Assembly (NCBI RefSeq): GCF_900177245.1
Contig: NZ_FXBM01000003.1
Coordinates: 62,001-126,000, forward strand
DNA: 64,000 nucleotides
From: Rathayibacter oskolensis
GTDB taxonomy: Bacteria > Actinomycetota > Actinomycetes > Actinomycetales > Microbacteriaceae
Direction of reading: 5' to 3'
This document shows positions 9,703 through 60,888 of the stretch, piece after piece. The notes beneath the pieces were generated by a model. The model was not told the origin of the DNA and did not search any database. It saw nothing but the letters and a program-made list of their open reading frames with translations. Made by a program: the position numbers and the translations under genes. Position 1 is the first letter of the stretch, and each line of letters starts with the position of its first letter.

Positions 9703-10060
9703 CCAGAAGTTGTCGTACTGGGTGGTCGAGTACGACAACTCCTGGACACTCGCGACTCCCCCGCCGTGCCGCGCGCCCGCAGCGGCGAGTGCGCGCGGCC
9801 CGAGACTCCAGAAGTTGTCGTACTGGGTGGTCGAGTACGACAACTTCTGGACACTCGCCGCGCCCGTGCGGTGCCGCGCGCCCGCAGCGACGAGAGCCCG
9901 CGGCTCAAGACTCCAGAAGTTGTCGTAGTCGGCACGCGAGTGCGACAACTTCTAGACACTCGCCGCGCCCATGCGATGCCGCGCGCCTGCAGCGACAGGA
10001 GCGTGCGGCCCGAGACTCCAGAAGTTGTCGTACTGGGCACTCGAGTACGACAACCCTTGG
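9703..10060. repeat. array of four long palindromes at exact 105-bp period
   Basis: Four 43-bp units start at 9703, 9808, 9913 and 10018, exactly 105 bases apart. Each has arms of the form CCAGAAGTTGTCGTAC and GTACGACAACTTCTGG around a short GC-rich centre. The linkers are also related, with the shared words GTGCCGCGCGCC and AGACTCCAG, so the true unit is about 105 bp. In unit 3 the central bases change (GTAGTC / GAGTGC) while the outer arms stay intact. The array fills most of the gap between the convergently placed ends of the symporter promoter region and the TetR gene. No protein gene is supported here. Confidence 0.85.
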
Positions 10061-10092
10061 AGGGTGGCGGGGCGAGGGCGGCGCGACGCGCG

Positions 10093-10746
10093 TCAGCGGA
10101 GGTGCGGCAGCAGGCCCGGGCCGACGGCGAGCGCCTCGGCGACGGCGGCGCGGTCGAGGTCGAGCACCCGCAGGGCGGCGAGCGCCACCGCCTCGGCGTA
10201 GGCGTCGGGCACGACGGGCTGCCGACGGCGCTGGAGGATCACGTTCTCGACGAGCGCGAGCACGAGCGAGGCTCCGGTCCCGGCGTCGGCGACTCCGCAG
10301 GCCGCGACGAGCGTGCGGTAGGCGGTCTCGAGCTCGGAGCGGCGCTCGCGGAACTCGGCGAAGCGCTCGTCGCCGAGCTCGGGCAGCAGGTAGAGCGCGC
10401 CGATGTTGTGCTCGCCCGCGGCGAGCAGGCGCACGTCCGAGATGCAGAGCGCCCAGAGGCGCGCGGCCGGAGGCTCCTCCCGGGTGAGGAGGACCGCCGC
10501 GGCATCGAGAGACGGCTGCACCGTCCCGAGCAGCAGCTCGAGCAGCACCGCGTGCTTGCCTCCGAAGTGGTGGTAGAGCGAGGCCTGGCGGATGCCCGCC
10601 GCGGCCGCGATCGCGTGCGTGCTCGTGCTGCCGAACCCCTCCGTGCAGAACAGTTCGGCGCTCGCGGCGAGGATGTCGGCCCGCGTGCCGCGGCCGGTGA
10701 GCGACGCTCCGGAGGCGCGCGGCCGTCCGGTGGGTGCGCTCGACAT
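10093..10746 (-). CDS. TetR/AcrR family transcriptional regulator
   Basis: The 217-residue protein has an N-terminal TetR helix-turn-helix (about residues 20-68, with DILAASAELFCTEGFGSTST and GIRQASLYHHFGGK) and a helical ligand-binding C-terminal part. The start at 10746 is chosen because the domain begins about 20 residues later; upstream codons in the frame run through the palindromic repeats and are not coding. The gene is flanked on both sides by palindrome arrays. Similar operator-like palindromes lie before the symporter and the carboxylase operon, so it most likely represses both in the absence of urea, guanidine or a derived metabolite. Confidence 0.85.
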   Translation of the reverse strand: MSSAPTGRPRASGASLTGRGTRADILAASAELFCTEGFGSTSTHAIAAAAGIRQASLYHHFGGKHAVLLELLLGTVQPSLDAAAVLLTREEPPAARLWALCISDVRLLAAGEHNIGALYLLPELGDERFAEFRERRSELETAYRTLVAACGVADAGTGASLVLALVENVILQRRRQPVVPDAYAEAVALAALRVLDLDRAAVAEALAVGPGLLPHLR

Positions 10747-10809
10747 GCGCTCGACCGTAGCAGCGGCGCGCGATCCCGCTCGTCGCGAGGCCACTCGAGC
10801 TCCGAGAAC

Positions 10810-11055
10810 GCAGAAGTCGTCGTACTCGAGCGCCGAGTGCGACAACTCGTGGACACTCGGGCTCGCCTGCCGCGGATCCCCGACGTCGGACACATGGCGA
10901 CGCGGACGAGAGTCCGAAAGTTGTCGCACTGGGCGCCGAGTGCGACAACTCTTGGACACTGGCGCGCACGGCACCGCGCGACTCCTGCGCATCGCGGCCA
11001 GGCGGTCGAGAGTCCAGAAGTTGTCGCAGTGGGCGCCGAGTGCGACAACTCTTGG
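10810..11055. repeat. second array of three palindromes
   Basis: Three units of the same family lie at 10810-10852, 10914-10955 and 11014-11055, about 100-104 bp apart. Their arms read AGTTGTCGCACT and AGTGCGACAACT, so relative to the first array a T-A pair in the stem has become C-G on both sides. This is the compensating pattern expected when the hairpin or palindrome itself is preserved. The linkers are less alike than in the first array. The array fills the 447-bp divergent gap between the TetR gene and the UAAP operon; no gene was seen in it. Confidence 0.82.
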
Positions 11056-11135
11056 ACTCTCGGGGTGCCGGCCGCGCGACGAAACACGATCGCAACACCG
11101 GGGTCACGCCCGCGTCACGACGGCGCGGTTGACTT

Positions 11136-11151
11136 CCTGTCGAGTGATAGA
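11136..11151. promoter_or_regulatory. putative TetR operator upstream of the carboxylase operon
   Basis: CCTGTCGAGTGATAGA matches the perfect palindrome at 9587-9602 at the same spacing with two changes in the left half. A TTGACT hexamer (11129-11134) directly precedes it, so a repressor bound here would overlap the promoter. It lies 43 bp before the start of the first operon gene. Confidence 0.5.
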
Positions 11152-11193
11152 AAGCCCCGGACCCCGGCGGCACCGGAACAGAGAGCGCAGCGC

Positions 11194-12018
11194 ATGACCG
11201 CATCGACCACCTCGACCACGGCGGGCGCCCGCGAGCACGCCCGCGCTCAGGAGGGGACCGCCGCCGAGTCCGGTCCGCTCGTCCCCGCGAGCCTGCACCC
11301 CGACCCTCCGGTCGAGCCCGATCGCCTCCGCTGGTCCGAGCGGATCGCCGGCGGCGGCTACGGCCACAGGGTCCTCGCCCGCGGCACGCACCTGCGCCTG
11401 ACCGATGTGACCGGCGACGCCTGCGTGTCGCTCCTGCTCTACAACGCCCTCGAGCCGCATGAGCGCCTCAACGTCGCCGACACCGTGAAGGTGCAGTGGC
11501 AGGTCTACGCCGGCACCGGTCAGCTGCTGCTCAGCGACCAGGGTCGCGTGCTCGCCAGCGTCGTCGCCGACGGGTCAGGGCACCACGACACGATCTACGG
11601 CACCACCGCGCTCGCCCGCAACGTCGAGCGCTACGGCGACGGCTCCCCCCAGGGCCCCTCGCCCGCCGGCCGTGAGCTGCTGCTGCTCGGAGCCGCGAAG
11701 CACAGGCTCACCCGGCGCGACCTGCCGCCGAGCGTCTCGTACTTCCAGGGCGTGCGGATCCGCGAGGACGGCAGTCCGGAGTGGCTCGGCAGCGCCGGCC
11801 CCGGCCGGTCGGTGACTCTGCGCCTCGAGATGCCGGCGGTCGTGCTGCTCGCGAACACCGCGCATCCGCTCGACCCGCGACCCGCCTTCACCGTCGGTCC
11901 CGTCGACGTGCTGGCCTGGGCCGGCGAGCCCGCGACCCCGGAGGAGCGCACCGCGACTCCCGAGGGCCGCCGCGCCTACCTCAACACCGACGACTACCTG
12001 CAGGCGAGGGGCCACTGA
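11194..12018 (+). CDS. DUF1989 protein, urea-carboxylase-associated (carboxyguanidine deiminase subunit type)
   Basis: The 274-residue protein has a disordered, Thr/Ala-rich start of about 35 residues. A DUF1989-type domain then covers about 40-235 (GTHLRLTDVTGDACVSLLLY and LSDQGRVLASVVADGSGHHDTIYG). It is the larger of the two UAAP proteins that accompany bacterial urea carboxylases. In characterised systems such pairs act as carboxyguanidine deiminase (CgdA/CgdB) on the product of a guanidine carboxylase. The gene's last base is the first base of the next ATG, so the pair is translationally coupled, as expected for two subunits. Confidence 0.85.
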   Translation: MTASTTSTTAGAREHARAQEGTAAESGPLVPASLHPDPPVEPDRLRWSERIAGGGYGHRVLARGTHLRLTDVTGDACVSLLLYNALEPHERLNVADTVKVQWQVYAGTGQLLLSDQGRVLASVVADGSGHHDTIYGTTALARNVERYGDGSPQGPSPAGRELLLLGAAKHRLTRRDLPPSVSYFQGVRIREDGSPEWLGSAGPGRSVTLRLEMPAVVLLANTAHPLDPRPAFTVGPVDVLAWAGEPATPEERTATPEGRRAYLNTDDYLQARGH

Positions 12019-12671
12019 TGAGCATGAGCACCGAGATCCACCGCGAGACCGTCGCCGCCCGCGCCCCCTGGTCGCGGATCCTCAAGCGGGGCGAGACCCT
12101 GACCATCGTCGACGTCGACGGCAACCAGGCCGTCGACTTCCTCGCCTACGACGCCGAGGACCTCACCGCCTACTCGGCCGCCGCCACCCTCCAGGCCCAG
12201 GCGAGCGTCTACCTCGTCACCGGCTCGGTGCTGCGCGACGCCGAGCACCGGCCGCTGCTGACCGTGATCGCGACCGATGTCGAGCGCCACGACACCCTCG
12301 GCGGCGCCTGCTCGAAAGAGAGCAACACCCTCCGCTACGGCTTCCACACCTATGCCCAGCACGCCTGCGCCGAGAACTTCGTCGCCGAGCTGTCGCGCTA
12401 CGGGATGGGCAAGCGCGACCAGGTCTCGAACGTGAACTGGTTCATGAACGTGCCGGTCGATCCCGACGGCGCGCTCGGGATCGTCGACGGCATCTCCGCT
12501 CCCGGGCTCAGCGTCAGCCTGCGTGCCGAGCGCGACACCCTCGTGGTCGTCTCGAACTGCCCGCAGATCAACAACCCGTGCAACGGCTTCGACCCGAGCC
12601 GCGCCGAGATGATCGTCCACAGCGCCGCAGGGACCGCCGCCACCGAGACCAAGGCCGCCGCCACCGCATGA
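12018..12671 (+). CDS. DUF1989 protein, second UAAP-type subunit
   Basis: The 217-residue protein is almost entirely a DUF1989 domain, with DVDGNQAVDFLAYDAED near the start, a Cys/Asn-rich patch GGACSKESNTLRYG (about residue 95-108) and VVVSNCPQINNPCNGF near the end, which may supply metal ligands. It is the smaller partner of the preceding protein. The ATG overlaps the preceding stop, and the next gene overlaps its stop in turn (ATGA), so the three are made together. Residues after about 205 are a low-complexity Ala/Thr tail. Function assignment follows the family and neighbourhood. Confidence 0.87.
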   Translation: MSMSTEIHRETVAARAPWSRILKRGETLTIVDVDGNQAVDFLAYDAEDLTAYSAAATLQAQASVYLVTGSVLRDAEHRPLLTVIATDVERHDTLGGACSKESNTLRYGFHTYAQHACAENFVAELSRYGMGKRDQVSNVNWFMNVPVDPDGALGIVDGISAPGLSVSLRAERDTLVVVSNCPQINNPCNGFDPSRAEMIVHSAAGTAATETKAAATA

Positions 12672-15600
12672 CCTTCGACACCCTCCTCGTCGCCAACCGC
12701 GGCGAGATCGCCGTCCGCATCCTCCGCACCGCGAAGGCCATGGGCCTGCGCACCGTCGCGGTCCACTCCGACGCCGACCTCGGAGCCGCCCACGTCGCCC
12801 TCGCCGACGAGGCGGTCAGGATCGGCCCGGCCCCCGCGGCCGAGAGCTACCTCCGCATCGACGCGATCCTCGAGGCGGCTCGAGCGACCGGCGCCGGCGC
12901 GATCCACCCCGGCTACGGCTTCCTCAGCGAGAACGCCGAGTTCGCGCGCGCCTGCGAGGCGGCGGGCATCGTCTTCGTCGGACCGACCCCCGAGCAGCTC
13001 GAGGTCTTCGGCGCCAAGCACACCGCCCGTGACGCCGCCGAGCGGGCGGGCGTCCCCCTGCTCGCCGGTACCGGCCTCCTCGACGACGCCGATCACGCCG
13101 CCCGCGAGGCCGCGCGCATCGGCTACCCCGTGATGCTCAAGGCGACGGCGGGAGGCGGCGGCATCGGCATGCGCGCCTGCCGCGACGAGGCCGAGCTGCG
13201 CACCGCGTGGCGCGAGGTGCGCCGTCTCGCCGAGGCGGGCTTCTCCTCCGCGGGCGTGTTCCTCGAGCGCCTGGTCGAGCGGGCCCGCCACGTCGAGGTA
13301 CAGGTGTTCGGCGACGGCGAGGGCCGCGTCGTGTCGCTCGGCGACCGCGACTGCTCCCTCCAGCGCCGCAACCAGAAGGTGGTCGAGGAGAGCCCGGCGC
13401 CCGATCTGCCCGACCACGTCAGGGACACGATCGCGGAGGCGTCGCGCCGGCTGTGCGCGGAGGCGGGCTACCGCAGCGCGGGCACCGTCGAGTACATCTA
13501 CGACCCGGTGCGGCAGGAGGCGGCCTTCCTCGAGGTGAACACGCGCCTCCAGGTCGAGCACCCGGTGACGGAGTCGCGCTACGGCATCGACCTGGTCGAG
13601 TGGATGCTGCGCCTCGCGCAGGGCGAGTCCGCCTTCCTCCACGAGATCCCGGAGCCGCGCGGCGCGGCCGTCGAGGCCCGCGTCTACGCCGAGAACCCCG
13701 ACCTGGGCAACGCGCCGAGCTCGGGCACGATCACGCAGGCGCTCTTCCCCGAGGGCGTCCGCGTCGACGGCTGGATCCGCGCCGGATCGGAGGTGTCGAC
13801 CGCCTACGATCCGCTGCTCGCGAAGGTGATCGTGACCGGCGAGGACCGCACCGCCGCGTGGGCCGCCCTCGGCGACGCGCTCGCGGGCACCCGCGTCGAC
13901 GGCATCGCGACGAACGTGGGGCTCCTCCGCGCCATCGCCGCCGAGCCGTCGGTGCTCGCCGCCGAGCACTCGACCGCGACGCTCGACGGCATCCGCGACG
14001 CGACTGCGCGCCTCGAGGTGCTCAAGGGCGGCATGCTCACCACCGTGCAGGACCTGCCCGGCCGCCTCGGCTACTGGCCGGTCGGCATCCCGCCGTCGGG
14101 GCCGATGGATCCGCTGTCGTTCCGGCTCGGCAACACCGCGCTCGGCAACCCCGAGAACGCGCCCGGACTCGAGATCACGATGAGCGGGCCCACCCTCCGC
14201 TTCCACTCCACCACCCGCGTCGTGCTCACCGGCGCCCCCGCGCCCGCCACCCTCGACGGCGCGCCGATCGCGCAGTGGGAGCCGATCACCGTCCCCGCGG
14301 GCGGGGTCCTCGCCGTCGGGACGGCCGAGCGCGGCATGCGGATGTACCTCCTGGTCGAGGGCGGCCTCGATCTGCCGCTCGTCCTCGGCTCGGCGAGCAC
14401 GTTCGACCTCGGCGCGATCGGCGGCCACGCGGGTCGCGCGCTCGCACCGGGCGACGTGCTCGGCATCACGACGCCCGAGGCGCCTCACGCGGTCTCCGCC
14501 GTGCCGGTCGCCGAGCGCCCCGAGTTCCCGACCGCGTGGACGCTCGCCGCGCTCGAGGGTCCGCACGCCGCTCCGGAGTTCTTCACGCCCGAGGACATGG
14601 ACGTGTTCTACGAGACCTCCTGGGACGTGCACTTCAACTCCGCCCGCACCGGCGTCCGCCTCGTCGGCCCGAAGCCGCGCTGGGCGCGCCCCGACGGCGG
14701 CGAGGCGGGGCTGCACCCCTCCAACATCCACGACACCCCCTACGCCGTCGGCGCGGTCGACTACACGGGCGACCTGCCGATCCTGCTCGGCCCCGACGGC
14801 CCGAGCCTCGGAGGCTTCACCTGCCCCGCGAGCGTCGCGACCGGCCACCTGTGGCGGCTCGGGCAGCTCCGCCCCGGCGACACCGTGCGCTTCGTGCCGG
14901 TCACCGCGACGCAGGCGACGCGCCTCCTCGACGCTCCGCTCGACGAGCCGGCCGCCGGCCGGGCACCCGTCGCCGACGAGGGCGTGCTGCACCGCCGCCC
15001 CGCGCACGACGGCGACCCCTCGCTGGTGCTGCGCCGCACCGGCGACGCGAACCTCCTCGTCGAGATCGGCGAGATGAGCCTCGACATCGCCTCCCGGATG
15101 CGGGTGCACGCGATCGCCGAGACGCTCGAGCGCGCCGCCCTGCCGGGCGTGATCGAGCTGACCCCCGGCATCCGCTCGCTGCAGGTGCACTTCGACCCGC
15201 GCACCACGTCGACCGCCGTGGTCGCCGAGGCCGTGCTCGCGGCGGAGGCGCTGCTCCCCGCGACCGCCGACCTGCGGGTCCCGAGCCGCACCGTGCACCT
15301 CCCCCTCGCGTGGGACGACCCGTCGACCCGCGAGGCGATCCGCCGCTACATGGCGGGCGTCCGCGACGACGCGCCCTGGTGCCCGTGGAACATCGAGTTC
15401 ATCCGCCGCATCAACGGCCTCGAGAGCGTCGACGACGTCTACCGCACCGTCTTCGAGGCCGAGTACCTCGTGCTCGGACTGGGCGACGTCTACCTCGGCG
15501 CGCCGGTCGCGACTCCGCTCGACCCCCGGCACCGGCTCGTCACCACCAAGTACAACCCGGCGCGCACCTGGACCCCGCAGAACGCGGTCGGCATCGGCGG

Positions 15601-16249
15601 CGCCTACCTCTGCATCTACGGGATGGAGGGGCCCGGCGGCTACCAGTTCGTCGGACGCACCGTGCCGATCTGGTCGACGCACCACCAGGCCGGAGCCTTC
15701 GAGGCCGGAGTGCCGTGGCTGCTGCGGTTCTTCGACCGCATCCGCTGGTACCCCGTGGAGCCCGAGGAGCTGCTGGAGTTGCGCGCATCGATGGCCGCGG
15801 GGCGACTGCCGCTGCACATCGAGGAGGGGACCTTCGGCCTCGCCGAGTACCAGGAGTTCCTCGCCGAGAACGCGGAGGGCATCGCCGAGTTCCGCGCCTC
15901 GCAGGCGACCGCGTTCGGCGCCGAACGCGACGCGTGGGTGGCCTCGGGCGAGTTCGACCGCGAGGAGGTGGTGCCCGCGCCGCCCGCGTCGGGCGCCGTC
16001 GAGATCCCCGCGGGCTGCGAGGGTGTCGAGGCGCCGTTCGTCGCGACCGTGTTCCGGCTCGACGTCGCCCCGGGCGACGTGGTCGCCGCCGGGCAGACCC
16101 TGGTCGCCCTCGAGGCGATGAAGATGGAGGCGCCGGTCGCCGCCCCCACGGCCGGCCGCGTGGTCGCCGTGGTCGCGACGGTCGGCGAGCAAGTGGCCGC
16201 GGGCAGCGTGCTCGTCGTGCTCGAGACGATCGAGGAGGAGGCGGCGTGA
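12668..16249 (+). CDS. biotin-dependent urea/guanidine carboxylase
   Basis: The 1,193-residue protein has the complete order of this enzyme class. A biotin carboxylase N-domain (1-110, ANRGEIAVRI) is followed by an ATP-grasp domain (115-320, GGGGIGMRA), the biotin carboxylase C-domain (335-440), KipA/AHS2- and KipI/AHS1-like carboxyltransferase parts (about 450-760 and 790-1000, with LTPGIRSLQVHFD and KYNPARTWTPQNAVGIGG) and a C-terminal biotinyl domain with EAMKMEAP near residue 1150. It carboxylates the substrate at the expense of ATP; the product is passed to the DUF1989 pair and/or the allophanate hydrolase encoded next to it. The DUF1989 neighbours favour guanidine over urea. A specificity-residue comparison was not possible here. 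Confidence 0.92.
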   Translation: MTFDTLLVANRGEIAVRILRTAKAMGLRTVAVHSDADLGAAHVALADEAVRIGPAPAAESYLRIDAILEAARATGAGAIHPGYGFLSENAEFARACEAAGIVFVGPTPEQLEVFGAKHTARDAAERAGVPLLAGTGLLDDADHAAREAARIGYPVMLKATAGGGGIGMRACRDEAELRTAWREVRRLAEAGFSSAGVFLERLVERARHVEVQVFGDGEGRVVSLGDRDCSLQRRNQKVVEESPAPDLPDHVRDTIAEASRRLCAEAGYRSAGTVEYIYDPVRQEAAFLEVNTRLQVEHPVTESRYGIDLVEWMLRLAQGESAFLHEIPEPRGAAVEARVYAENPDLGNAPSSGTITQALFPEGVRVDGWIRAGSEVSTAYDPLLAKVIVTGEDRTAAWAALGDALAGTRVDGIATNVGLLRAIAAEPSVLAAEHSTATLDGIRDATARLEVLKGGMLTTVQDLPGRLGYWPVGIPPSGPMDPLSFRLGNTALGNPENAPGLEITMSGPTLRFHSTTRVVLTGAPAPATLDGAPIAQWEPITVPAGGVLAVGTAERGMRMYLLVEGGLDLPLVLGSASTFDLGAIGGHAGRALAPGDVLGITTPEAPHAVSAVPVAERPEFPTAWTLAALEGPHAAPEFFTPEDMDVFYETSWDVHFNSARTGVRLVGPKPRWARPDGGEAGLHPSNIHDTPYAVGAVDYTGDLPILLGPDGPSLGGFTCPASVATGHLWRLGQLRPGDTVRFVPVTATQATRLLDAPLDEPAAGRAPVADEGVLHRRPAHDGDPSLVLRRTGDANLLVEIGEMSLDIASRMRVHAIAETLERAALPGVIELTPGIRSLQVHFDPRTTSTAVVAEAVLAAEALLPATADLRVPSRTVHLPLAWDDPSTREAIRRYMAGVRDDAPWCPWNIEFIRRINGLESVDDVYRTVFEAEYLVLGLGDVYLGAPVATPLDPRHRLVTTKYNPARTWTPQNAVGIGGAYLCIYGMEGPGGYQFVGRTVPIWSTHHQAGAFEAGVPWLLRFFDRIRWYPVEPEELLELRASMAAGRLPLHIEEGTFGLAEYQEFLAENAEGIAEFRASQATAFGAERDAWVASGEFDREEVVPAPPASGAVEIPAGCEGVEAPFVATVFRLDVAPGDVVAAGQTLVALEAMKMEAPVAAPTAGRVVAVVATVGEQVAAGSVLVVLETIEEEAA

Positions 16250-17502
16250 CCGCATTCGACGACCCGGCGGCGCACGTCGCCGCACGCTACGAGCGGCTCG
16301 CCTCGCGCCCGGAGGCGTTCATCTCTCTGCGGCCGCAGGGCGACGTGGTCGCGGAGCTGCGCTCCGTCGATCCGTCGCTGCCGCTCGCCGGCCTGCTGTT
16401 CGCCGTGAAAGGCAACATCGACGTCGCGGGGATCGACACCACGGCCGCCTGCCCCGCCTTCGCCTACCGGCCGGCGGCCGACGCGACCGTCGTCGGGCGC
16501 CTCCGCGCCGCCGGCGCCGTCGTGCTCGGCTCGACCAACCTCGACCAGTTCGCGACGGGGCTCGTCGGCACCCGCTCCCCCTACGGCGCGGTGCGGCACG
16601 CGGTCGACGAGACGCGCATCTCCGGAGGCTCCTCCAGCGGTTCGGCGGTCGCTGTCGCGCTGGGTGCCGCCGACTTCGCGCTCGGCACCGACACCGCGGG
16701 CTCCGGCCGGGTCCCCGCCGCGTTCCACGGGCTCGTCGGGCTCAAGCCGACGAAGGGCTGGGTGAGCGCGGCCGGCGTCGTGCCGGCCTGCCGCAGCCTC
16801 GACGTGGTCACGGTGATGGCGGCCGACGCCTCCGTGGCGCGGCGCGCACTCGACGTGATGGCCGGGCCCGACTCCCGCGATCCGCTCAGCCGGGTCGGCT
16901 CCGCGGCTCCGTTCGCGTCGAGCCCCAGCATCGGCGTGCCACTGCCCGGGCAGCTCGGCGCCCTCGCTCCCGGCTGGCAGGAGGCGTTCGACGCGGAGGC
17001 GGCGCGCTGGGCCGCGACCGGCGCCGCTCTCGTCGAGATCGACATCGAGGTGTTCCTCGAGACCGCGCGGATGCTCTACGACGGCGCGTTCGTCGCCGAG
17101 CGCTACGCGGCGGTCGGCGAGTTCGTCGATGCGCACCCCGACGAGGTCGACCCCACGGTCGGGGGCATCGTCTCGCGCTCGCGCGAGCTGCCGGCGTGGA
17201 AGCTGTTCCAGGACCAGGGGCGACTCGACCGCGCGCGGGTCGCCTCCGCTCTCGTCTTCGACCGGATCGACGCACTGCTGCTGCCGACGACCACCGAGCA
17301 CCCGACGCTCGCGGCCGTCGCCGCGGATCCGATCGGCGTGAACTCGCGACTGGGCCGGTTCACCAACTTCGCGAACCTCCTCGATCTCGCGGCGATCGCC
17401 TACCCCGCGGGAGTCGCCGACGGCCTGCCGTTCGGCGTCCAGCTGATCGGCCCCGCCTTCTCCGACCGCCACCTCGCCGACCTGATCTGGAGCACCCCGT
17501 GA
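16246..17502 (+). CDS. atzF: allophanate hydrolase, amidase-signature domain
   Basis: The 418-residue protein is an amidase-signature enzyme with the full Ser-Ser-Lys triad: K55 (FAVKGNID), S129 (GGSSSGSA) and S153 (TDTAGSGR). The spacing of the triad matches that of AtzF-type allophanate hydrolases. The enzyme converts allophanate to ammonia and carbon dioxide, completing urea or guanidine breakdown. The usual C-terminal domain of about 130-150 residues is absent from this protein and encoded by the next gene, which starts in a GTGA overlap. Its own GTG start overlaps the carboxylase stop. Confidence 0.92.
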   Translation: MTAFDDPAAHVAARYERLASRPEAFISLRPQGDVVAELRSVDPSLPLAGLLFAVKGNIDVAGIDTTAACPAFAYRPAADATVVGRLRAAGAVVLGSTNLDQFATGLVGTRSPYGAVRHAVDETRISGGSSSGSAVAVALGAADFALGTDTAGSGRVPAAFHGLVGLKPTKGWVSAAGVVPACRSLDVVTVMAADASVARRALDVMAGPDSRDPLSRVGSAAPFASSPSIGVPLPGQLGALAPGWQEAFDAEAARWAATGAALVEIDIEVFLETARMLYDGAFVAERYAAVGEFVDAHPDEVDPTVGGIVSRSRELPAWKLFQDQGRLDRARVASALVFDRIDALLLPTTTEHPTLAAVAADPIGVNSRLGRFTNFANLLDLAAIAYPAGVADGLPFGVQLIGPAFSDRHLADLIWSTP

Positions 17503-17885: not shown

Positions 17886-17922
17886 CGCGCTGCCCCCTGA
17901 CGCTCGCCGAGTCGTGACGAAC

Positions 17923-17949: not shown

Positions 17950-18026
17950 TTCTGCGACCTCTCGGCGCGCGCAGCCGGCTGTGGAGGACGGGGTCGGGCT
18001 GTGGAGAGGGGTTCGGAGGGGCGGGG

Positions 18027-30536: not shown

Positions 30537-30573
30537 GATGCTCGGGATGTGGAGGAGCCGCGCCCTCGCGAGT

Positions 30574-30618
30574 CCGCAAGAGTTGTCGTAGTCGCGGCTC
30601 CAGTACGACAACTCTTGG
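30574..30618. repeat. single copy of the long palindromic repeat
   Basis: The unit has arms AAGAGTTGTCGTA and TACGACAACTCTT and the flanking CC...GG of the family seen at 9.7, 10.8 and 60.8 kb. Its loop (GTCGCGGCTCCA) differs completely from the others, so only the stem is kept. It lies between the cytidine-deaminase-like gene end and the cysteine hydrolase promoter. Confidence 0.75.
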
Positions 30619-30651
30619 AGCCTCGACGGGCGGGGCGGGCCGGGCCGGCGG

Positions 30652-31098
30652 TCAGACCGGGCGGGCGGCCCGGCGACGGCGGAACGGCAGCAGGTCGGCG
30701 ACCCGCACCGGCGCGAACGCGGCGTCGACGGCGACCCAGACGGTCGCCTCCGGGGCGTGGTCGCCGAGCAGCTCGGCGCACACCCCGCACGGCTCGATGA
30801 GGTGCCGGCTGCCGCCCGGGCGTTCGAGCACCCCGACGACCGAGACCACCGGCGACCCGGCGACGACCGCCGCACTGAGCGCGGCCGACTCGGCGCAGAC
30901 CGACGCCCGCCCCGCGCTCGCCTCGACGTGCAGGCCGGTCACGACCCGCCCGTCCGCGAGCCGCAGCGCCGCCGCCACCTCGTGGACGCGCTCGCGGTAG
31001 CGCTCGTCGAGGATCCCGGTCGCGATCGCCAGCAGCTCCCGATCGCCCGCCGACATCCCCTCGGGCGCCCCCGCGAGCACCGGCCGGTCGGAGGTCAC
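30652..31098 (-). CDS. cytidine deaminase-like zinc protein
   Basis: The 148-residue protein carries the zinc and catalytic motifs of the cytidine deaminase family: C68-A-E70 in SVCAESAAL and C104/C107 in EPCGVC. Length fits the small homotetrameric type. It starts at a GTG that overlaps the stop of the TIM-barrel amidohydrolase gene. In this operon it could act on a pathway intermediate rather than on cytidine, but the motifs alone do not decide this. The C-terminal tail is Arg-rich. Confidence 0.8.
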   Translation of the reverse strand: MTSDRPVLAGAPEGMSAGDRELLAIATGILDERYRERVHEVAAALRLADGRVVTGLHVEASAGRASVCAESAALSAAVVAGSPVVSVVGVLERPGGSRHLIEPCGVCAELLGDHAPEATVWVAVDAAFAPVRVADLLPFRRRRAARPV

Positions 31099-44439: not shown

Positions 44440-44518
44440 GACGATCGCTCTCTTCGAGTCGGGGTGCCGTCGGGGGCCCCGGCGGTGCGGCCGGGGCCCC
44501 CGACGCGGAGGGAGTGGG

Positions 44519-54008: not shown

Positions 54009-54082
54009 CCCACCACCCGTCGGGCACGAGCCCGCCGGGCACGACACCGGCCGACCGGCCGGGACTGAGGAAGAGAAGGAAC

Positions 54083-54847
54083 ATGACCATCACGACCAGC
54101 CCGTCAGAGATGCACGCGAAGGCCGAGCCCTCCGACCTCGCGAGCCTCTACAAGCACCTGCGCGTCTGCGACGTGGTCGACGCCATGGACGGCATCGGCT
54201 ACTTCAACATCGGCCTCATGGACAAGGAGGTGCGCCCGCTGTGGCTCGGGATGCGCTTCTGGGGCGAGGCCGCCACCATCCGCTGCGTGCCGTCGAACCG
54301 GCCGATGTGGAAGCTCGACACCACCGAGGACATCGTCGCGGCGCACGGCCGGTGGTTCAGCGAGATCGCGCACCCCAAGCTCCCCGCCGACCTGCCCCCG
54401 GGGCACGTCATCGTGATGGACGCCGGCGGCGGACCCGAGGTCGGCTTCTGGGGCTCCGAGAACGCGATGGCGGTCGTCCGCGCCGGAGCGGTCGGGATCA
54501 TCACCGACGGCTACTGCCGTGACACCGCGGAGGTGGCCGCTCAGAAGAGCCCCGTCGTCGCCCGGTACCGGGGACGCACGATCATCCCCGGCCGCATCAT
54601 GACCGTCGAGACGCAGACGACCATCGCCTGCGGCGGTGTGCAGGTCAACCCGGGCGACATCGTCGGAGCCGACGACGACGGCGTGGTCGTGGTGCCCCGC
54701 CACATCGCCGAGGAGGTCGCCGTGCACGCCCGCGCGATCCTCCTGGCCGACATGAACGCCCGCAAGCAGCACTACGCGGGGCTCGGCATGCAGCCGGACA
54801 GCTCCGTCGACATCGACGCGATCCTCGCCTACTACGCCGAGGTGTGA
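54083..54847 (+). CDS. RraA-like family protein (HMG/CHA-aldolase-like)
   Basis: The 254-residue protein has the RraA fold with VCDVVDAMDGIG near the start, VIVMDAGGGPEVGFWGSENAMAVVRAGAVGIITDG in the middle and the metal-site motif GYCRDTAEV (R-D-x-x-E). In class II pyruvate aldolases of this family these residues bind the divalent metal and the keto acid. It lies 74 bp behind the lactonase gene with AAGGAAC before the ATG. The likely reaction is retro-aldol cleavage of a keto acid of the pathway. Confidence 0.85.
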   Translation: MTITTSPSEMHAKAEPSDLASLYKHLRVCDVVDAMDGIGYFNIGLMDKEVRPLWLGMRFWGEAATIRCVPSNRPMWKLDTTEDIVAAHGRWFSEIAHPKLPADLPPGHVIVMDAGGGPEVGFWGSENAMAVVRAGAVGIITDGYCRDTAEVAAQKSPVVARYRGRTIIPGRIMTVETQTTIACGGVQVNPGDIVGADDDGVVVVPRHIAEEVAVHARAILLADMNARKQHYAGLGMQPDSSVDIDAILAYYAEV

Positions 54848-54920
54848 TCACCGCACCGCCCGCGCCCGGCCCGGGCGCGGGCGGTCGGCCTCACCCACCC
54901 TCTTCAAGGAGCACAGCACC

Positions 54921-56108
54921 GTGGACCACCGATCAGAGATCGAGCACCTCCTCCCCCTCGACCCGCGCGCCGCTCTCGTGGGCCGGGTGCAACTGCCCGG
55001 CGAACGCGGGGCGCACGTCGTCGCGCGCCGCGACGACCGGCTCGTCGACCTCACCACCGTGACGCCGACCGTCGCCGACCTCCTGGAGCGGCCGGACCTG
55101 CTCGAGATCGTGCGCACCGCGGAGGCTCCGCTCTCGTGGTCCGTCGACGACGTCGTCGAGAGCACCCTCGCCGGAGGGACCGGCCCCCGTCTCGTCTCCC
55201 CCGTCGACCTCCAGGTCATCAAGGCGGCCGGGGTCACCTTCGCCCGCAGCATGATCGAGCGGGTCATCGAGGAGAAGGCCGGAGGCGACGCGAGCCGCGC
55301 GGTCGAGATCCGCGCCCGGGTGCAGGAGGCGATCGGCGGGACCATCGGCGCGATCCGCCCCGGCAGCCCCGAGGCGGAGGACGCGAAGCGGATCCTGATC
55401 GAGGAGGGACTCTGGTCGCAGTACCTCGAGGTCGGCATCGGCCCCGACCCCGAGATCTTCTCGAAGGCCCCCGTCCTCTCCTCCGTCGGCACCGGAGCCG
55501 AGATCGGCGTCCTGTCGCGCTCCACCTGGAACAACCCCGAGCCCGAGGTCGCCCTGCTGGTGACCCGCGACGGTCGGTCCGTCGGCGCGACGCTCGGCAA
55601 CGACGTGAACCTGCGCGACTTCGAGGGGCGCAGCGCGCTGCTGCTCGGCGAGGCGAAGGACAACAACGGCTCGTGCTCTCTGGGCCCGATGATCCGCCTC
55701 TTCGACGACACGTTCTCGCAGAGCGACGCCGCCCGCCTCGAAGTGGGCCTGCGCATCACCGGAGCCGACGGCTTCGAGCTCGTCGACGGCAGCTCGATGA
55801 GAGAGATGAGCCGGACCCTCGACGAGCTCGTGCGCCACACGGTCGGCGACCACCACCAGTACCCCGACGGCTTCGTCCTGTTCACCGGCACGCTCTTCGC
55901 GCCCACGCAGGACAGGGACAGCCCCGGTCTCGGCTTCACCCATCACGACGGCGACGTCGTGCGCATCTCGGCGCCCGAGCTGGGCACCCTCGTCAACCGC
56001 GTCACCAGCTCGGAGGCGTGCCCGCCCTGGACCTTCGGCATCCGCGCCTTCTACACCGACCTCGCCGAGCGGGGACTGCTGCCCTCGCGCCAGGGGGTCG
56101 CGGCGTGA
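54921..56108 (+). CDS. fumarylacetoacetate hydrolase family protein (AraD1-type)
   Basis: The 395-residue protein has an N-terminal accessory part of about 90 residues and a C-terminal FAH domain (about 170-390) with WNNPEPEVALLV, GATLGNDVNLRDFEG and LGEAKDNNGSCSLGP, which hold the usual metal-binding acidic residues. Length and layout match the AraD1 branch, which includes 2-keto-3-deoxy sugar acid dehydratases. It starts at GTG with AAGGAG nine bases upstream; its stop overlaps the next GTG. In sequence with the aldehyde dehydrogenase it would convert a 2-keto-3-deoxy acid to a semialdehyde. Confidence 0.85.
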   Translation: MDHRSEIEHLLPLDPRAALVGRVQLPGERGAHVVARRDDRLVDLTTVTPTVADLLERPDLLEIVRTAEAPLSWSVDDVVESTLAGGTGPRLVSPVDLQVIKAAGVTFARSMIERVIEEKAGGDASRAVEIRARVQEAIGGTIGAIRPGSPEAEDAKRILIEEGLWSQYLEVGIGPDPEIFSKAPVLSSVGTGAEIGVLSRSTWNNPEPEVALLVTRDGRSVGATLGNDVNLRDFEGRSALLLGEAKDNNGSCSLGPMIRLFDDTFSQSDAARLEVGLRITGADGFELVDGSSMREMSRTLDELVRHTVGDHHQYPDGFVLFTGTLFAPTQDRDSPGLGFTHHDGDVVRISAPELGTLVNRVTSSEACPPWTFGIRAFYTDLAERGLLPSRQGVAA

Positions 56109-57064
56109 CCGGCCCGGCGATCGTCGTCACCGACCACGCGTTCGGCGGCACCGTCCACGAGGAGGCGCTCGCCCGCGCGACGGGGCGCGAGCTCCGGGTG
56201 CTCCAGTGCGTCGAGGAGGAGGAGACGGTGCGGGCCGTCGGCGGCGCCGATCTCGTGTTCGTCAACTTCGCCCCGGTCTCGCGTGCCGTGCTCGAGGCGC
56301 TCGCCCCCGGCGCCACCGTCATCAGGTACGGCATCGGCTACGACAACGTCGACATCGAAGCGGCGCGGTCGCTCGGCGTGCGCGTCGCGAACGTGCCCGA
56401 CTACGGCGTCGACACGGTCGCCGACCACACCGTGGCGTGCCTCCTGGCCCTGCTGCGCCGCACCGGCCCGTTCACGGCAGCGGTGCGCGAGCGGGGCTGG
56501 CTGACCGCCTCGGCGCTCGGCCCGATCCGCGGGTTCGCCGAGACCACGGTCGGCCTCATCGGCACGGGGCGGATCGGCCGAGCGGTCGCGGCGCGTCTGC
56601 GGCCGTTCCACTTCGAGGTGATCGCCTACGACCCCTTCGTCTCCCCCTCCCAGCTCGCGGACGAGGGAGTCGAGCAGGTCGAGCTGTCGCAGCTGCTCGC
56701 GCGGGCCCACGCCGTCTCGCTGCACGCGCCGCTCACCGCGCAGAACAGGCACCTCATCGGGGAGTCGACCCTGGAGGCCCTCCGCTCCGACGCCGTCCTG
56801 GTGAACACCTCACGGGGCGGCCTCGTCGACGAGGAGGCGCTCGCCCGAGCTCTCGGCAGCGGGCGGCTCGCAGGAGCGGCACTCGACGTCTTCGACCCGG
56901 AGCCGCTGCGCGAGGACTCGCCGCTGCGGGGTCTCGAGAACGTGATCCTCACGCCGCACGCCGCGTTCTACTCCGTCAGCTCGCTCGACGCCCTGCAGCG
57001 CCTCGCGGCCGAGGAGGGAGCGCGCGCTCTCGCGGGCCAGCCGCTCCGCTGCCCCGTCGCCTGA
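56105..57064 (+). CDS. D-2-hydroxyacid dehydrogenase (CtBP-like)
   Basis: The 319-residue protein has the D-isomer-specific dehydrogenase layout: RYGIGYDNVDIEAA, the NAD-binding GLIGTGRIGRAVAARL, the catalytic Arg in LVNTSRGGLVDE, Glu in DVFDPEPL and His in LTPHAAFYS. It reduces 2-keto acids or oxidises 2-hydroxy acids with NAD(P). The gene is coupled to the FAH-family gene by a GTGA overlap, suggesting that both act on the same keto acid. Confidence 0.9.
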   Translation: MTGPAIVVTDHAFGGTVHEEALARATGRELRVLQCVEEEETVRAVGGADLVFVNFAPVSRAVLEALAPGATVIRYGIGYDNVDIEAARSLGVRVANVPDYGVDTVADHTVACLLALLRRTGPFTAAVRERGWLTASALGPIRGFAETTVGLIGTGRIGRAVAARLRPFHFEVIAYDPFVSPSQLADEGVEQVELSQLLARAHAVSLHAPLTAQNRHLIGESTLEALRSDAVLVNTSRGGLVDEEALARALGSGRLAGAALDVFDPEPLREDSPLRGLENVILTPHAAFYSVSSLDALQRLAAEEGARALAGQPLRCPVA

Positions 57065-57106
57065 GCACCACCGCACCCGACCTCCGAGACGAGAAGGACC
57101 ACCAGC

Positions 57107-58552
57107 ATGCCCGCCAGCTACCGCAACCTCATCGACGGCCGATGGGGAGCCCCCGGCGACGCCGTCCCCGACGTGAACCCGTCCGACCTCGACGACGTCG
57201 TCGGCGTCGCCCCCTCCTCGGGCGCGGCCACGACCGAGGAGGCGATCGCGGCCGCGGCCGCCGCCGCTCCCGGCTGGGGCGACAGCACCCCGGAGGCGCG
57301 CGCGAACGTCCTCGACGGTGCCGCGCAGGCCGTGCGGGCGCGGCAGGACGAGCTCGGCACGCTGCTCGCCCGCGAGGAGGGAAAGCCGATCGCCGAGGCG
57401 ACCGCCGAGGTCGGCCGCGCCGCGCACCTCCTGCGCTTCTTCGCCGGCGAGTCCCTCCGCATCGGCGGCGAGGTCGTCCCCTCGGTCCGCCCCGGGATGA
57501 CCGTCGAGATGACGCGCGAGCCGGTCGGGGTCGTCGGGGTGATCACCCCCTGGAACTTCCCGATCGCCATCCCGACGTGGAAGATCGCTCCCGCGCTCGC
57601 CTGGGGGAACACCGTGGTGCTGAAGCCCGCCGAGAACACCCCGGGCATCGCCTCCGCTCTCGTCGAGATCCTGCACGAGGCGGGGCTGCCCGCCGGCGTC
57701 CTCAACCTCGTCTACGGCCGCGGATCGGTGGTCGGCCGGGCGCTCGTCGACTCGCCCGACGTCGACGCGATCACCTTCACGGGGAGCGTCGCCGTGGGGC
57801 GCGGCGTCATCGCCTCCGCGGCGGCGAACGGCAAGCGGGTGCAGGCCGAGATGGGCGGCAAGAACCCGATGGTGGTGCTCGACGACGCCGACCTCGAGCT
57901 CGCGGTCGAGGCGTGCGCGAACGGCGCCTACTTCTCGACCGGTCAGCGCTGCACCGCGTCGTCGCGGCTCATCGTGACGGAGGGGATCCACGATCTCTTC
58001 GTCGAGCGGCTGACGGCGCGGATGCGCGGCATGCGGGTCGGCCACGCCCTCGAGACCGAGACGGTGGTCGGGCCGGTCGTCGACGAGGCGCAGCTCGCGC
58101 AGGACCTCCGCTACCTCTCGATCGCCGCGGAGGAGGGCGGCACCGTGATCGGCGGCGAGCTGGTCGAGCGCCCCACCCGCGGCCACTTCCTCGCTCCCGC
58201 ACTCGTCGTCGGCACGACGAACGAGATGACGGTCAACCGCGAGGAGGTCTTCGGCCCGGTCGCGTCCGTCCTCCGGGTGCGCGACTACGACGAGGCGCTC
58301 GCCGTCGCGAACGCGACCGAGTTCGGCCTCTCGGCGGGCATCTGCACCCGCTCGCTCGCGGCGGCGAAGCACTTCTCGCGCCGCGCCCAGGCGGGAATGG
58401 TGATGGTGAACGCACCCACCGCCGGTGTCGACTACCACGTGCCGTTCGGCGGGTCGAAGGGATCGAGCTATGGCCCGAAGGAGCAGGGCAGCTACGCCCG
58501 CGAGTTCTTCTCGTCGGTCAAGACGACGTACGTGAACCCCGGCCCGATGTGA
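57107..58552 (+). CDS. NAD(P)-dependent aldehyde dehydrogenase
   Basis: The 481-residue protein has the ALDH set: VGVITPWNFPIAIPTWKIAPALAWGN, the catalytic Glu in QAEMGGKNP and the catalytic Cys in TGQRCTASS, followed by VFGPVASVLRV. Its pattern (VGRAAHLLRFFAGESLRIGGE) resembles alpha-ketoglutaric semialdehyde dehydrogenases of non-phosphorylating sugar acid pathways. It is the last gene of the operon and is followed by a strong hairpin. The likely role is oxidation of the semialdehyde formed by the upstream enzymes. Confidence 0.9.
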   Translation: MPASYRNLIDGRWGAPGDAVPDVNPSDLDDVVGVAPSSGAATTEEAIAAAAAAAPGWGDSTPEARANVLDGAAQAVRARQDELGTLLAREEGKPIAEATAEVGRAAHLLRFFAGESLRIGGEVVPSVRPGMTVEMTREPVGVVGVITPWNFPIAIPTWKIAPALAWGNTVVLKPAENTPGIASALVEILHEAGLPAGVLNLVYGRGSVVGRALVDSPDVDAITFTGSVAVGRGVIASAAANGKRVQAEMGGKNPMVVLDDADLELAVEACANGAYFSTGQRCTASSRLIVTEGIHDLFVERLTARMRGMRVGHALETETVVGPVVDEAQLAQDLRYLSIAAEEGGTVIGGELVERPTRGHFLAPALVVGTTNEMTVNREEVFGPVASVLRVRDYDEALAVANATEFGLSAGICTRSLAAAKHFSRRAQAGMVMVNAPTAGVDYHVPFGGSKGSSYGPKEQGSYAREFFSSVKTTYVNPGPM

Positions 58553-58585
58553 CGAGGCTGCTCCGGCAGCCGGCCCCACGACGCA

Positions 58586-58621
58586 GAGGGTGCGGTACTC
58601 GAGACCGAGTACCGCACCCTC
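58586..58621. terminator. perfect 16-bp hairpin between convergent genes
   Basis: GAGGGTGCGGTACTCG (58586-58601) and CGAGTACCGCACCCTC (58606-58621) are exact reverse complements with a 4-base loop. It lies 34 bp after the aldehyde dehydrogenase stop and 20 bp from the end of the convergent secreted protein gene, so it can terminate both. Confidence 0.85.
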
Positions 58622-58640
58622 CGGGGTGTCGCGCCGGTCG

Positions 58641-60656
58641 TCAGCCGATCAGCACCGCGAAGCCCTCGGCGGGCAGCGTGACGGAGGCGCCCGACACCGC
58701 GGCCGACTCGCTCACCAGCACGCCGTCGGACGAGTAGACGCGCACCGTCCCGGCGCCGCCCAGCGTCGTGGTCTGCTGCGACGCGGTCGAGTTGCGCACC
58801 AGCTCCGTGCGCCCGCCGTCGCCTCCGATCACGAGGCGCGAGACGGCGGGACGCACTAGCAGGGCGTCGAGCTTCGTCTCGCCGCTCAGCGCCCGCACCT
58901 CGACGGTGGTCGCGCCGGCGGGCACGGTCCGGCGCAGCTTCTGCGGCAGCAGGGCGCCCGAGGCGTCCGTGATCCCCTGCTCGCCGACCGTGCTCTTCAG
59001 CAGGTCGAGCGGTCGGCGACCCGTGTTCCACAGGCTGAGCGGAGTGGTCTCCGTCCCCTTCTCGACCCGCCAGGTCACGGCCTCGACGGCACGCTCCTGC
59101 GCGGAGGAGCCGATCTCGATCGTCGCCGAGCGGCGCCAGTTCGAGAGCGACAGGTACGAGCCGCTCCAGCCGGACTCGCCGGTCCAGGCCGACTCCGGAG
59201 TCACGACCGTGCCTCCCCGAGCGGTCTCGGCCTCGACCAGCTGGAGACCGTCGCGGCTCTGCTGGGTCGCGACGGACTGCGCGCGCTCGGCCAGCTCGGG
59301 CCGCTCGTCGAGCGCGATCATCGCGAGCAGACCGTGGATGGTGCTCTCGGCGCCGCTGTTGCGATTGACGCTGCCGTCGGCCTGCACGCCGTCGAAGGTG
59401 ACCCCGGTCGCGGAGTCGTAGACCGGAGCGCCACTGCCGTTCAGCCCGAAGAACCAGGCGCCCTGGATCCCCGCGAGATCGGTGTAGGCGCTCGACCCGG
59501 TGGCGTCGGCGAGGGCGAGCGAGTTCTGCAGGCGCGAGTCGGCACCGTAGGCGATCTGCACGCGGTCGGTCGGAGTCGGGTTCCAGCCGTTGTCGGGACC
59601 ACCGGCGGTCAGCAGCTCGGGCGCGAAGCGCGAGGCGTCGACGACGGCGGGCTCGAGCAGGGAGGCGTCACCGAGGGCCTGCGAGGACTCGGCGAGACCG
59701 GCGGCCATCTGCGACGACCACGAGTGCCAGAGCGAGCGCGACTTCGCCCACGGCAGGATCGCGCCGTACGGCCACGAGGTGGTGTCCGCCTCCGTCGTGG
59801 TGCGCGCGAGCGCGGCGACGCCCTCGGCGAGCTTGGCGGTGCTGTCGCGCACGGCGGCGTCGTCGGGGGCGGCCCCGACGTACGCCGAGAGGCCGAGGAG
59901 CGCCTCCGCGGTGGCGTCGGCGCCGTCGACGATGAGCCAGGCGGGGACGTCGACACCGTCGGCGACGGAGTACTCGCCGTAACGGGTCAGGACCTCGCGG
60001 TCGACGGCGGAGACGCTGAGCTGGAGGCGCTCCTGCAGGAAGGCGGCGAACTCGGGGTCGTCGTCGCGGAACGCCGCGTAGCCCTCGCCGAACGCCCAGA
60101 GGCTCCTGGCGAGCCAGTAGCTGTCCTCGGAGTCGCTCGGATCGGGCAGCTCGACCGGCTCGGCGCTCGGGTTGAGGTCGCCGTCGGGCTGCATCCACAG
60201 CACCACGTTCCCGGCGTCCTCGCCGTCGGTGGTCTGGAAGTAGGCGAGGGCGCGCAGGGTCTCGTAGGCGCGGTCGCGGCTCGCCGTCGAGCCGGTCTGC
60301 TGCCAGTGGCGGAGGTAGACGACGGCGGCGCGCGAGATGTCGTCGGTGTTGTAGGCGCCCTGCGCCCAGTCTCCGGTCGCAGGGTCGAGCGCTCCGCCCC
60401 CGACGCGCTCGAACGTGCCGCCGTCGCGGGCGTCCGCGTAGGTCCACGGCATCACCAGCTCGGGCTCCTCGGCGAGGCGGTAGGTGGTGTGACCCGGCTG
60501 GGGCTCGGGAGTCGCGGTGTCGAGGAGGAAGTCGAGGTGCGCGGTGTTGGCCAGCGGGGTCGCGGCCTGCGCGGGAGTCGCGCCGAGGGCGAGGCCCCCG
60601 GCGATCAGGGCGGTCGCGGCCAGGGCGGCCGCCGATCGTGTTCTCAGGTTCGTCAT
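58641..60656 (-). CDS. secreted (alpha/alpha)-barrel-like protein of a carbohydrate locus
   Basis: The 671-residue protein has a Sec signal peptide (about 1-33, ending in TPAQA). A long helical domain follows (about 40-460) with YLRHWQQTGSTASRDRAYETL, SYWLARSLWAFGEGYAAF and SRSLWHSWSSQMAAGLAESS, reminiscent of the alpha-toroid of glycoside hydrolases and phosphorylases. The C-terminal part (about 480-671) is beta-rich and carbohydrate-binding-like (GWSGSYLSLSNWRRSATIEI). No catalytic residues can be named. The ATG follows GGAGAG. It lies behind a GH130-like enzyme and sugar permeases and may degrade the extracellular polymer they use. Confidence 0.72.
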   Translation of the reverse strand: MTNLRTRSAAALAATALIAGGLALGATPAQAATPLANTAHLDFLLDTATPEPQPGHTTYRLAEEPELVMPWTYADARDGGTFERVGGGALDPATGDWAQGAYNTDDISRAAVVYLRHWQQTGSTASRDRAYETLRALAYFQTTDGEDAGNVVLWMQPDGDLNPSAEPVELPDPSDSEDSYWLARSLWAFGEGYAAFRDDDPEFAAFLQERLQLSVSAVDREVLTRYGEYSVADGVDVPAWLIVDGADATAEALLGLSAYVGAAPDDAAVRDSTAKLAEGVAALARTTTEADTTSWPYGAILPWAKSRSLWHSWSSQMAAGLAESSQALGDASLLEPAVVDASRFAPELLTAGGPDNGWNPTPTDRVQIAYGADSRLQNSLALADATGSSAYTDLAGIQGAWFFGLNGSGAPVYDSATGVTFDGVQADGSVNRNSGAESTIHGLLAMIALDERPELAERAQSVATQQSRDGLQLVEAETARGGTVVTPESAWTGESGWSGSYLSLSNWRRSATIEIGSSAQERAVEAVTWRVEKGTETTPLSLWNTGRRPLDLLKSTVGEQGITDASGALLPQKLRRTVPAGATTVEVRALSGETKLDALLVRPAVSRLVIGGDGGRTELVRNSTASQQTTTLGGAGTVRVYSSDGVLVSESAAVSGASVTLPAEGFAVLIG

Positions 60657-60762
60657 TGAACTCTCCGGTCGTGGGTGGTGGTCGGGGTGGGTGGTCGAGG
60701 GACCGCGGCTGGTCGAGCGGTCGCGGCTGTGGTCGGGGTGCGACCCGGGGGACCGCGAGAGT

Positions 60763-60804
60763 CCAGGAGTTGTCGCGTTCGGTGTCGACTGCGACAACTC
60801 TTGG
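60763..60804. repeat. long palindromic repeat copy
   Basis: The unit CCAGGAGTTGTCGC...GCGACAACTCTTGG has a GTTCGGTGTCGACT centre, which keeps the stem but differs from the other loci. It is one of two copies, 84 bp apart, between the secreted protein gene and the GH130-like gene. Confidence 0.75.
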
Positions 60805-60846
60805 ACAGTCGGGAGAGGCGAGAGCGACCCGGGGGACCGCGAGAGT

Positions 60847-60888
60847 CCAAGAGTTGTCGCGTTCGGTGTCGACTGCGACAACTCTTGG
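60847..60888. repeat. long palindromic repeat copy with perfect 18-bp arms
   Basis: With its flanks this copy has exact inverted arms GAGTCCAAGAGTTGTCGC and GCGACAACTCTTGGACTC, the longest perfect stem of the family. The 14-base centre is identical to that of the copy at 60763, suggesting a recent local duplication. Confidence 0.8.

Follow-up and report, generated by a model that had tools for sequence, protein, structure and literature searches.

A dispersed BIME-like palindromic repeat of Rathayibacter and its likely use as a 3'-end hairpin

A palindromic repeat at gene ends

We analyzed a window of 64,000 nucleotides (nt) of Rathayibacter oskolensis, a member of a plant-associated genus, in which an earlier note had pointed out a family of long palindromes. 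The window has a GC content of 72%. The palindromes, of about 57 nt each, are copies of a dispersed repeat resembling the bacterial interspersed mosaic elements (BIMEs), and we think it fairly likely that this repeat acts as the 3'-end hairpin of transcription units. The kind of element is already known. What we observed directly is the position of the copies, their polarity relative to genes, the scarcity of other hairpins at the gene ends they occupy, the presence of copies at orthologous sites, arrays in which two types alternate, and paired changes in the core.

The arms of the palindrome are laid out roughly as CSAS-W-NNN-CARRAGTTGTCGYR-STSG and are separated by 4-5 nt, and the C/G-ambiguous quartet (CSAS/STSG) is present four times per element. 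There are two main core types, GTTGTCG and GTTGCGG (hereafter TCG and CGG). Among 87 copies collected genus-wide, the left feet include CGAG (32 copies), CCAC (20) and CGAC (15); the 14 commonest left feet, which cover 84 of the 87 copies, do not include GTAG or GTGG.

Position and polarity relative to genes

We studied 182 distinct copies at 116 loci of ten Rathayibacter genomes, including the window, counted on non-overlapping sources. A copy was counted only if each of its arms was close to one of five core types and if it lay more than 20 nt from the end of the sequence; strongly worn copies and the copy at 58.58 kb of the window are left out of this set. Gene calls were scripted for the analysis, and their stops are safer than their starts. 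Only one of the 182 copies falls inside a called gene, and that call is overextended. Both neighboring genes are known at 108 loci, of which 39 lie between convergent genes (18.3 expected), 60 between genes of the same strand and nine between divergent genes (29.8 expected), the expected numbers being derived from the available gaps. Copies are thus depleted between divergent genes. They begin about 20 nt past stop codons. In same-strand gaps the first arm is at most 60 nt from the stop codon at 48 of the 60 loci, when 19.3 would be expected under a uniform distribution, and a distance of at most 60 nt to the next start is found at 11 of them. The median distance there is 25.5 nt from the stop codon to the first arm and 131 nt from the last arm to the next start. 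Between convergent genes, the first arm is within 60 nt of a stop codon at 37 of the 39 loci.

The feet of the palindrome are often unequal, which gives it a direction. In same-strand gaps, reading in the sense of the genes, 39 copies have a CCAC-like 5' foot and a CGAG-like 3' foot, and four have the opposite arrangement. Counted per locus, the polarity in same-strand gaps is 23 vs 2, with 35 uninformative loci, and the direction of the majority is identical in each of the ten genomes; a smaller copy set gave 26 vs 1. The polarity of the quartets by the loop is weak (37 vs 19, p 0.02), and neither the stability of the sense relative to the antisense fold nor a C-rich upstream flank added a clear signal. 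The polarity of the feet, which the earlier note did not mention, gives the strongest indication that the element either functions in transcription or owes its placement to it.

We then counted other hairpins at gene ends, setting aside five long gaps with element-like ends. After excision of the element, a second strong hairpin was found at two of 78 element-bearing gene ends, compared with 72 of 385 element-free ones (Fisher p 1e-4). The element seemingly replaces the usual stop-signal hairpin at gene ends. A U-run follows none of 162 copies, as the earlier note had stated, although its deduction that the palindromes are not ordinary terminators does not hold: the other 3'-end hairpins are mostly U-less too, with at least 4 T in the next 8 nt in only 6 of 81 rows (71 distinct hairpins), so the missing U-run does not set the element apart. 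Perfect hairpins of 14-21 bp, 7-13 nt past stop codons and without U-runs, were also seen at 3702-3750, 44468-44505 and 54855-54885 of the window; these are other 3'-end hairpins of its genome.

The placement of all copies beside catabolic genes, which had been noted in the window, does not extend to the genus. Of 62 nearest upstream genes we took 20 at random, and their Pfam matches include domains of PurH, PurL, a Clp ATPase, heme oxygenase and LacI-type regulators, together with those of sugar- and aldehyde-using enzymes; two of the 20 had no match.

Copies in the window

The ten palindromes were recovered at all four loci named before (9.7-10.1, 10.8-11.1, 30.6 and 60.8-60.9 kb), together with an eleventh copy that had been missed, with the core GGTGCGG, at 58.58 kb. 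The copies and the genes next to them are the following.

9696..9752, minus strand: palindrome copy, TCG core, one of four in tandem (105-bp unit) past the 3' end of the TetR gene
9801..9857, minus strand: palindrome copy, TCG core
9906..9962, minus strand: palindrome copy, TCG core
10011..10067, minus strand: palindrome copy, TCG core, closest to the TetR stop codon
10093..10746, minus strand: TetR-type regulator gene, upstream of the four-copy array
10803..10859, no strand: palindrome copy, worn core GTCGTCG/GTTGTCG, in the divergent gap TetR/DUF1989
10907..10962, no strand: palindrome copy, TCG core with CAC/GTG
11007..11062, no strand: palindrome copy, TCG core
30569..30625, minus strand: palindrome copy, TCG core, 3' of gene 30652-31098(-)
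58576..58631, no strand: eleventh copy, GGTGCGG core, between the convergent genes 57107-58552(+) and 58641-60656(-)
60756..60811, minus strand: palindrome copy, TCG core, in an 84-bp duplicated unit 3' of the GH130 gene
60840..60895, minus strand: palindrome copy, TCG core, uninterrupted 22-bp stem
60930..62009, minus strand: gene for a glycoside phosphorylase (GH130), upstream of the two copies listed just above

A hairpin uniting both arms folds in nine of the ten copies. The DNA fold of eight copies was matched by only 0 or 1 of 200 shuffles, that of the 30.6-kb copy by 12 of 200 and that of the worn 10.8-kb copy by 37 of 200. The copy at 10011..10067 is the only one of the window that lies in a same-strand gap and shows the C/G polarity of the feet (on the minus strand, 5' foot CCAC and 3' foot CTCG). 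The copy at 11007..11062 was scored as inside a gene only through a too-early start in the scripted gene call. The closest relatives of the window among the loci compared are from Rathayibacter; in G017, one of the 15 genomes of this genus, a 1.56-kb stretch matches positions 8.2-9.75 kb of the window with 93.7% identity. Downstream of the divergent palindrome cluster, the stretch 11194-16249 contains two DUF1989 genes and, behind them, a urea carboxylase-like gene.

Distribution in the genus and beyond

The first refuting condition of the earlier note, absence of the element elsewhere, does not hold, as copies occur across the genus. A covariance model (R1) built from the 87 copies matches all 15 Rathayibacter genomes at E 0.01 or better, with 10-128 rows per genome, which list both strands among the best 150 candidates at most and are not exact copy numbers. 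The pattern GTTGTCGN{10,32}CGACAAC has 3 to 27 matches in six named Rathayibacter genomes, and its reversed control none in those six. A looser pattern is found in 14 of the 15 genomes (0-37 copies each), with 0-1 matches per genome for the reversed control. We also scanned a collection of species genomes with AGTTGTCGYRN{9,17}YRCGACAACT, which returned 97 stretches: six Rathayibacter strains account for 59 of them and other taxa for 38, the latter mostly single and including three in Rhodococcus and two in Oerskovia turbata. One might have taken the copies for ordinary GC-rich hairpins that look alike by chance or composition, since unrelated matches to the core pattern do arise, as in these 38 of 97 stretches. 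This explanation is already refuted: the reversed control gives at most one match per Rathayibacter genome when the pattern gives up to 37, and 182 copies have the same extended sequence in common.

Among the Microbacteriaceae, the looser pattern is found in 155 of 299 genomes, mostly 1-3 times, and its reversed control in around 70. The genomes with more matches are G267 (24), G049 (11), G134 (7), G023 (6) and G060 (6), and R1 has 5, 2, 0 and 5 rows in the last four, among the best 150 candidates at most per genome. On these sequence matches, some further copies in the family outside Rathayibacter are possible. At the level of the class, the exact core AGTTGTCGN{8,26}CGACAACT is found in nine of 394 genomes, with a single match each save Oerskovia turbata (eight), its reversed control in about ten of the 394, and R1 matches four of 393 other genomes under strict filters. 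We therefore rejected the idea of a wide actinobacterial family. A known RNA family was ruled out by the absence of Rfam matches in the window at the gathering score, and a plasmid origin was discarded, with only two weak matches (E 0.1) in traC of Aeromonas plasmids.

Other palindromes were seen in some of these genomes. G267 has around 23 copies of a different one, CGATCCGTCAGTTGTTGTCGCTA..., with an unequal loop (L219-L230) that by eye reads AAA...(G/C)GA in gene sense in three same-strand cases; an outer CGATCCGTCA resembling it is also present in palindromes of G017. Oerskovia turbata has its own family, CTGAGTGCGGAGTAGTTGTCG..., with eight exact core copies (L076, L092, L098, L206, L215-L218), several of which sit 24-48 nt past stop codons.

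Pairing between the arms

It had been claimed that changes in the stem always affect both arms. This is the case in the core. With a pattern that permits hybrids, we found 123 copies with TCG on both arms, 28 with CGG on both arms and no mixed copy among 151; and when one arm has the consensus, its partner agrees at 8 or more of the 10 core bases in 230 of 230 cases. The proportions of TCG and CGG are biased because 59 loci were found through a scan for the TCG core, 56 of which are in the final counts. In the 87 copies, the column pairs 26/42 (79 matches observed vs 44 expected), 16/52 (60 vs 40), 17/51 (67 vs 48) and 11-13/55-57 covary. The claim fails at the C/G positions of the feet and by the loop, where the pairs 7/61, 9/59, 10/58, 28/40 and 30/38 vary independently: matches are 51 vs 47 expected at 7/61 and 36 vs 38 at 9/59 in the outer stem, and 51 vs 55 at 28/40 and 60 vs 64 at 30/38 on the loop side. 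In these parts unpaired changes are as common as paired ones or commoner. The second refuting condition of the note, that copies in other genomes show unpaired changes as often as paired ones, thus has a mixed outcome. Among the ten copies first noted in the window, 11 cells changed on both sides, eight on one side while still pairing, and 41 were unpaired; pairing reached 84.2% of 260 cells, vs 83.4% in shuffles. Hence, the view of a structure-keeping family holds insofar as the repeat is multi-copy and genus-wide with paired changes in its central stem, and the loop does vary as described, but "always" has to be dropped.

No lone half of the element was found: 169 of 172 arms have a recognized partner and the remaining three a degenerate one (these sources partly overlap). 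Guide/target pairing is a feature of IS200/IS605 elements. We considered it for the quartets of the feet and the loop (CSAS/STSG) and dropped it, as there is no significant positive foot-loop correlation; the correlations are weakly negative for 9/28 (-0.28) and 9/30 (-0.36), and one positive value (p 0.06) came from the non-iranicus subset.

The paired changes might come mainly from template switching between the arms during replication (quasipalindrome correction), a possibility that we hold to be real if doubtful, and that is compatible with a use as 3'-end hairpin. Such switching has been proposed as a source of compensatory changes in RNA stems (PMC8794818). For TCG to become CGG, two base pairs must change at once, and hybrids were not seen; in addition, one pair of orthologous copies has the same loop and differs by one paired change, as template switching would produce. 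A switch should, however, also correct mismatches on the loop side, and these persist, 28/40 being unpaired in 36 of 87 copies and 30/38 in 26 of 87. Mixed arrays, described below, offer a simpler source of core swaps, namely the loss of one type from an alternating pair.

Arrays, orthologous sites and mode of spread

In arrays of 5-7 counted units in G016, G001 and G002, the TCG and CGG types alternate strictly or nearly so. The alternation is strict over the seven units of L231, is also seen in L053 and is less strict in L037 and L075. The spacing is mostly 79-84 nt, and linkers of 21-22 nt and of 25 nt take turns in G016; the units of L231 are joined by linkers of these lengths. By eye, going by the feet, all the units of L231 have the same sense, as do most of those of L037 and L053.

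We compared three intergenic sites of the window across species, window included, and found the element in place in all of them (site A in 4/4, site B in 4/4, site C in 5/5); the site of the copy at 30569..30625 is occupied in all five species compared. At each of the three sites the core type differs among species. Such core swaps at fixed sites may result from the loss of one type from mixed arrays, from template switching between arms, or from conversion. These same-site pairs with two cores are natural material for studying how U-less 3' ends form in GC-rich actinobacteria and how a palindrome comes to change on both arms at once. In two other species, the site at 60.7 kb has palindromes of another family in place of the element. 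One site could be compared with its empty state, a gap of 15 bp vs 156 bp with two copies, with no clear target-site duplication.

A second dispersed palindrome family, GGTCTCGATACGCCC...GGGCTACTCGACCAG, was seen at gene-end sites where other species have the main element, around 2.8 kb of L179 (G016) and 3.5 kb of L189 (G002), both opposite 60657-60929 of the window, and also in a G016 gap opposite a two-copy site of G017. Around 17.9 kb of L158 (G017), a remnant beside two copies has its outer arms seemingly fused directly and lacks the core, which seems to fit the expectation for a palindrome deletion.

Repetitive extragenic palindromes (REPs) and BIMEs are usually explained by REP-associated tyrosine transposases (RAYTs), and the earlier note had suggested a link of this kind. 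It found no support: the RAYT domain (Y1_Tnp, PF01797) was found in none of 15 Rathayibacter genomes, among which the window's own genome is not included, and a control search matched five of 14 known genomes. We thus rejected a RAYT as the spreader. In nine genomes outside the genus, PF01797 was absent from seven, including Oerskovia turbata, G267, G585 and Rhodococcus phenolicus, and present in R. zopfii and G369. The occurrence of BIME-like arrays, gene-end placement and transcription polarity without a RAYT in 15 of 15 genomes means that the pattern is separable from that enzyme.

The repeat could instead be purely selfish DNA similar to REPs, to their hairpin-forming doublets (REPINs) or to miniature inverted-repeat transposable elements (MITEs), moved by some enzyme, its position past stop codons resulting from removal elsewhere or from the targeting of hairpins. 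It is multi-copy and patchy outside the genus, differs in presence or absence between close species, forms alternating two-type arrays with linkers of about 22 and 25 nt, and has no lone arms, as such DNA would; and targeted insertion into terminators would account for both the polarity and the exclusion of other hairpins. We nevertheless consider this explanation unlikely. Purifying selection alone yields neither the 23:2 polarity nor the rarity of other hairpins, no RAYT is present in the 15 genomes, and several sites are stable across species.

Binding sites of a protein, whether an operator, a chromosome organizer or a site for gyrase, seem improbable. Gyrase binding is a proposal made for BIMEs, and the conserved AGTTGTCG core with 12-13 nt between YR/YR pairs, the array spacings of often 79-84 nt and the divergent gap occupied in four species would suit such a role. 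Yet orthologous sites differ by replacement of the core as a unit (TCG for CGG), a change that would hardly suit a protein recognizing a specific sequence, and the polarity follows the genes.

A 3'-end hairpin as the favored explanation

If the repeat is indeed the 3'-end hairpin of transcription units, the palindrome would serve as a U-less terminator and/or as a block to 3' exonucleases, and between convergent genes it would be usable from both sides. Both termination and the protection of the mRNA are what we infer from the sequence. Copies would multiply locally through tandem duplication and would be scattered in the genome by a presumed route independent of a resident RAYT. Selection would retain those just past stop codons and remove those in promoters, and the paired changes would presumably come from a mixture of selection and arm-to-arm template switching.

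Several observations weigh against this explanation. The feet show no polarity in convergent gaps (14 vs 10), and 647 of 788 gene ends with gaps of at least 60 bp have no element, even though the sources were selected for its presence. That none of the 162 palindromes is followed by a U-run also counts here, and a simple hairpin does not account for the independent C/G positions at the feet and by the loop. Four species retain the cluster of the divergent gap (10.8-11.06 kb), where no 3' end needs it, and a site with two copies in G017 corresponds in G016 to a bare 15-bp gap without substitute hairpin. Finally, the counts are not fully independent, as convergent gaps yield two ends each and orthologous sites recur.

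A more far-reaching version is that the copies are genus-wide, exchangeable and transcription-polar terminator cassettes, a RAYT-free BIME-like mosaic that replaces 3'-end hairpins, in which cores are swapped as blocks by palindrome-specific conversion and sites and polarity are conserved. We put this forward tentatively and regard it as rather unlikely in its full form.

Comparison with known systems

The element resembles the REPs, palindromic units (PUs) and BIMEs of enterobacteria, which are short imperfect palindromes, extragenic, multi-copy and found in regularly spaced arrays of more than one unit type. In Escherichia coli, BIMEs mix unit types with two kinds of linker. Their units alternate in orientation, whereas those of the Rathayibacter arrays share one orientation, and the Rathayibacter unit is of about 57 nt with a conserved mid-stem; it also differs from REPs and BIMEs by the absence of a RAYT in the 15 genomes tested and of a GTAG/GTGG 5' foot. 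REPs have been reported to aid Rho-dependent termination (PMC2817692). We did not find the RAYT-free, gene-polar and hairpin-replacing behavior described in the open-licence literature searched.

The REPINs of Pseudomonas are described as symmetrical palindromes that carry compensatory changes and form tandem arrays in which two classes alternate (PMC3116915), and in the passages cited they share with the Rathayibacter palindromes both the compensatory changes and the arrays alternating between two types. A REPIN, however, is made of two REPs in inverted orientation, is conserved at its ends and variable in between, and is tied to a RAYT, whereas the element studied here has a conserved mid-stem, variable ends and loop, and no lone half among the arms found.

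A palindromic repeat of around 75 nt, with 15-99 copies per Rathayibacter genome, was mentioned in one sentence in 2018 (mBio, PMC6113626). It is probably the element analyzed here, matched by description only: that text on the repeat, in the part cited, gives no sequence, location, polarity, core types or function. In the open-licence literature searched, we found no other paper that seemed to describe this repeat.

Lastly, intrinsic terminators free of a U-tract have been described as hairpins mostly at most 80 nt past the stop codon, often clustered and often lacking poly-U (PMC8355165). The Rathayibacter palindromes are similar to them in sitting shortly past the stop codon without a U-run. 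The difference, going by the passages cited, is that those terminators form no sequence family, whereas the hairpins of Rathayibacter are copies of one repeat.

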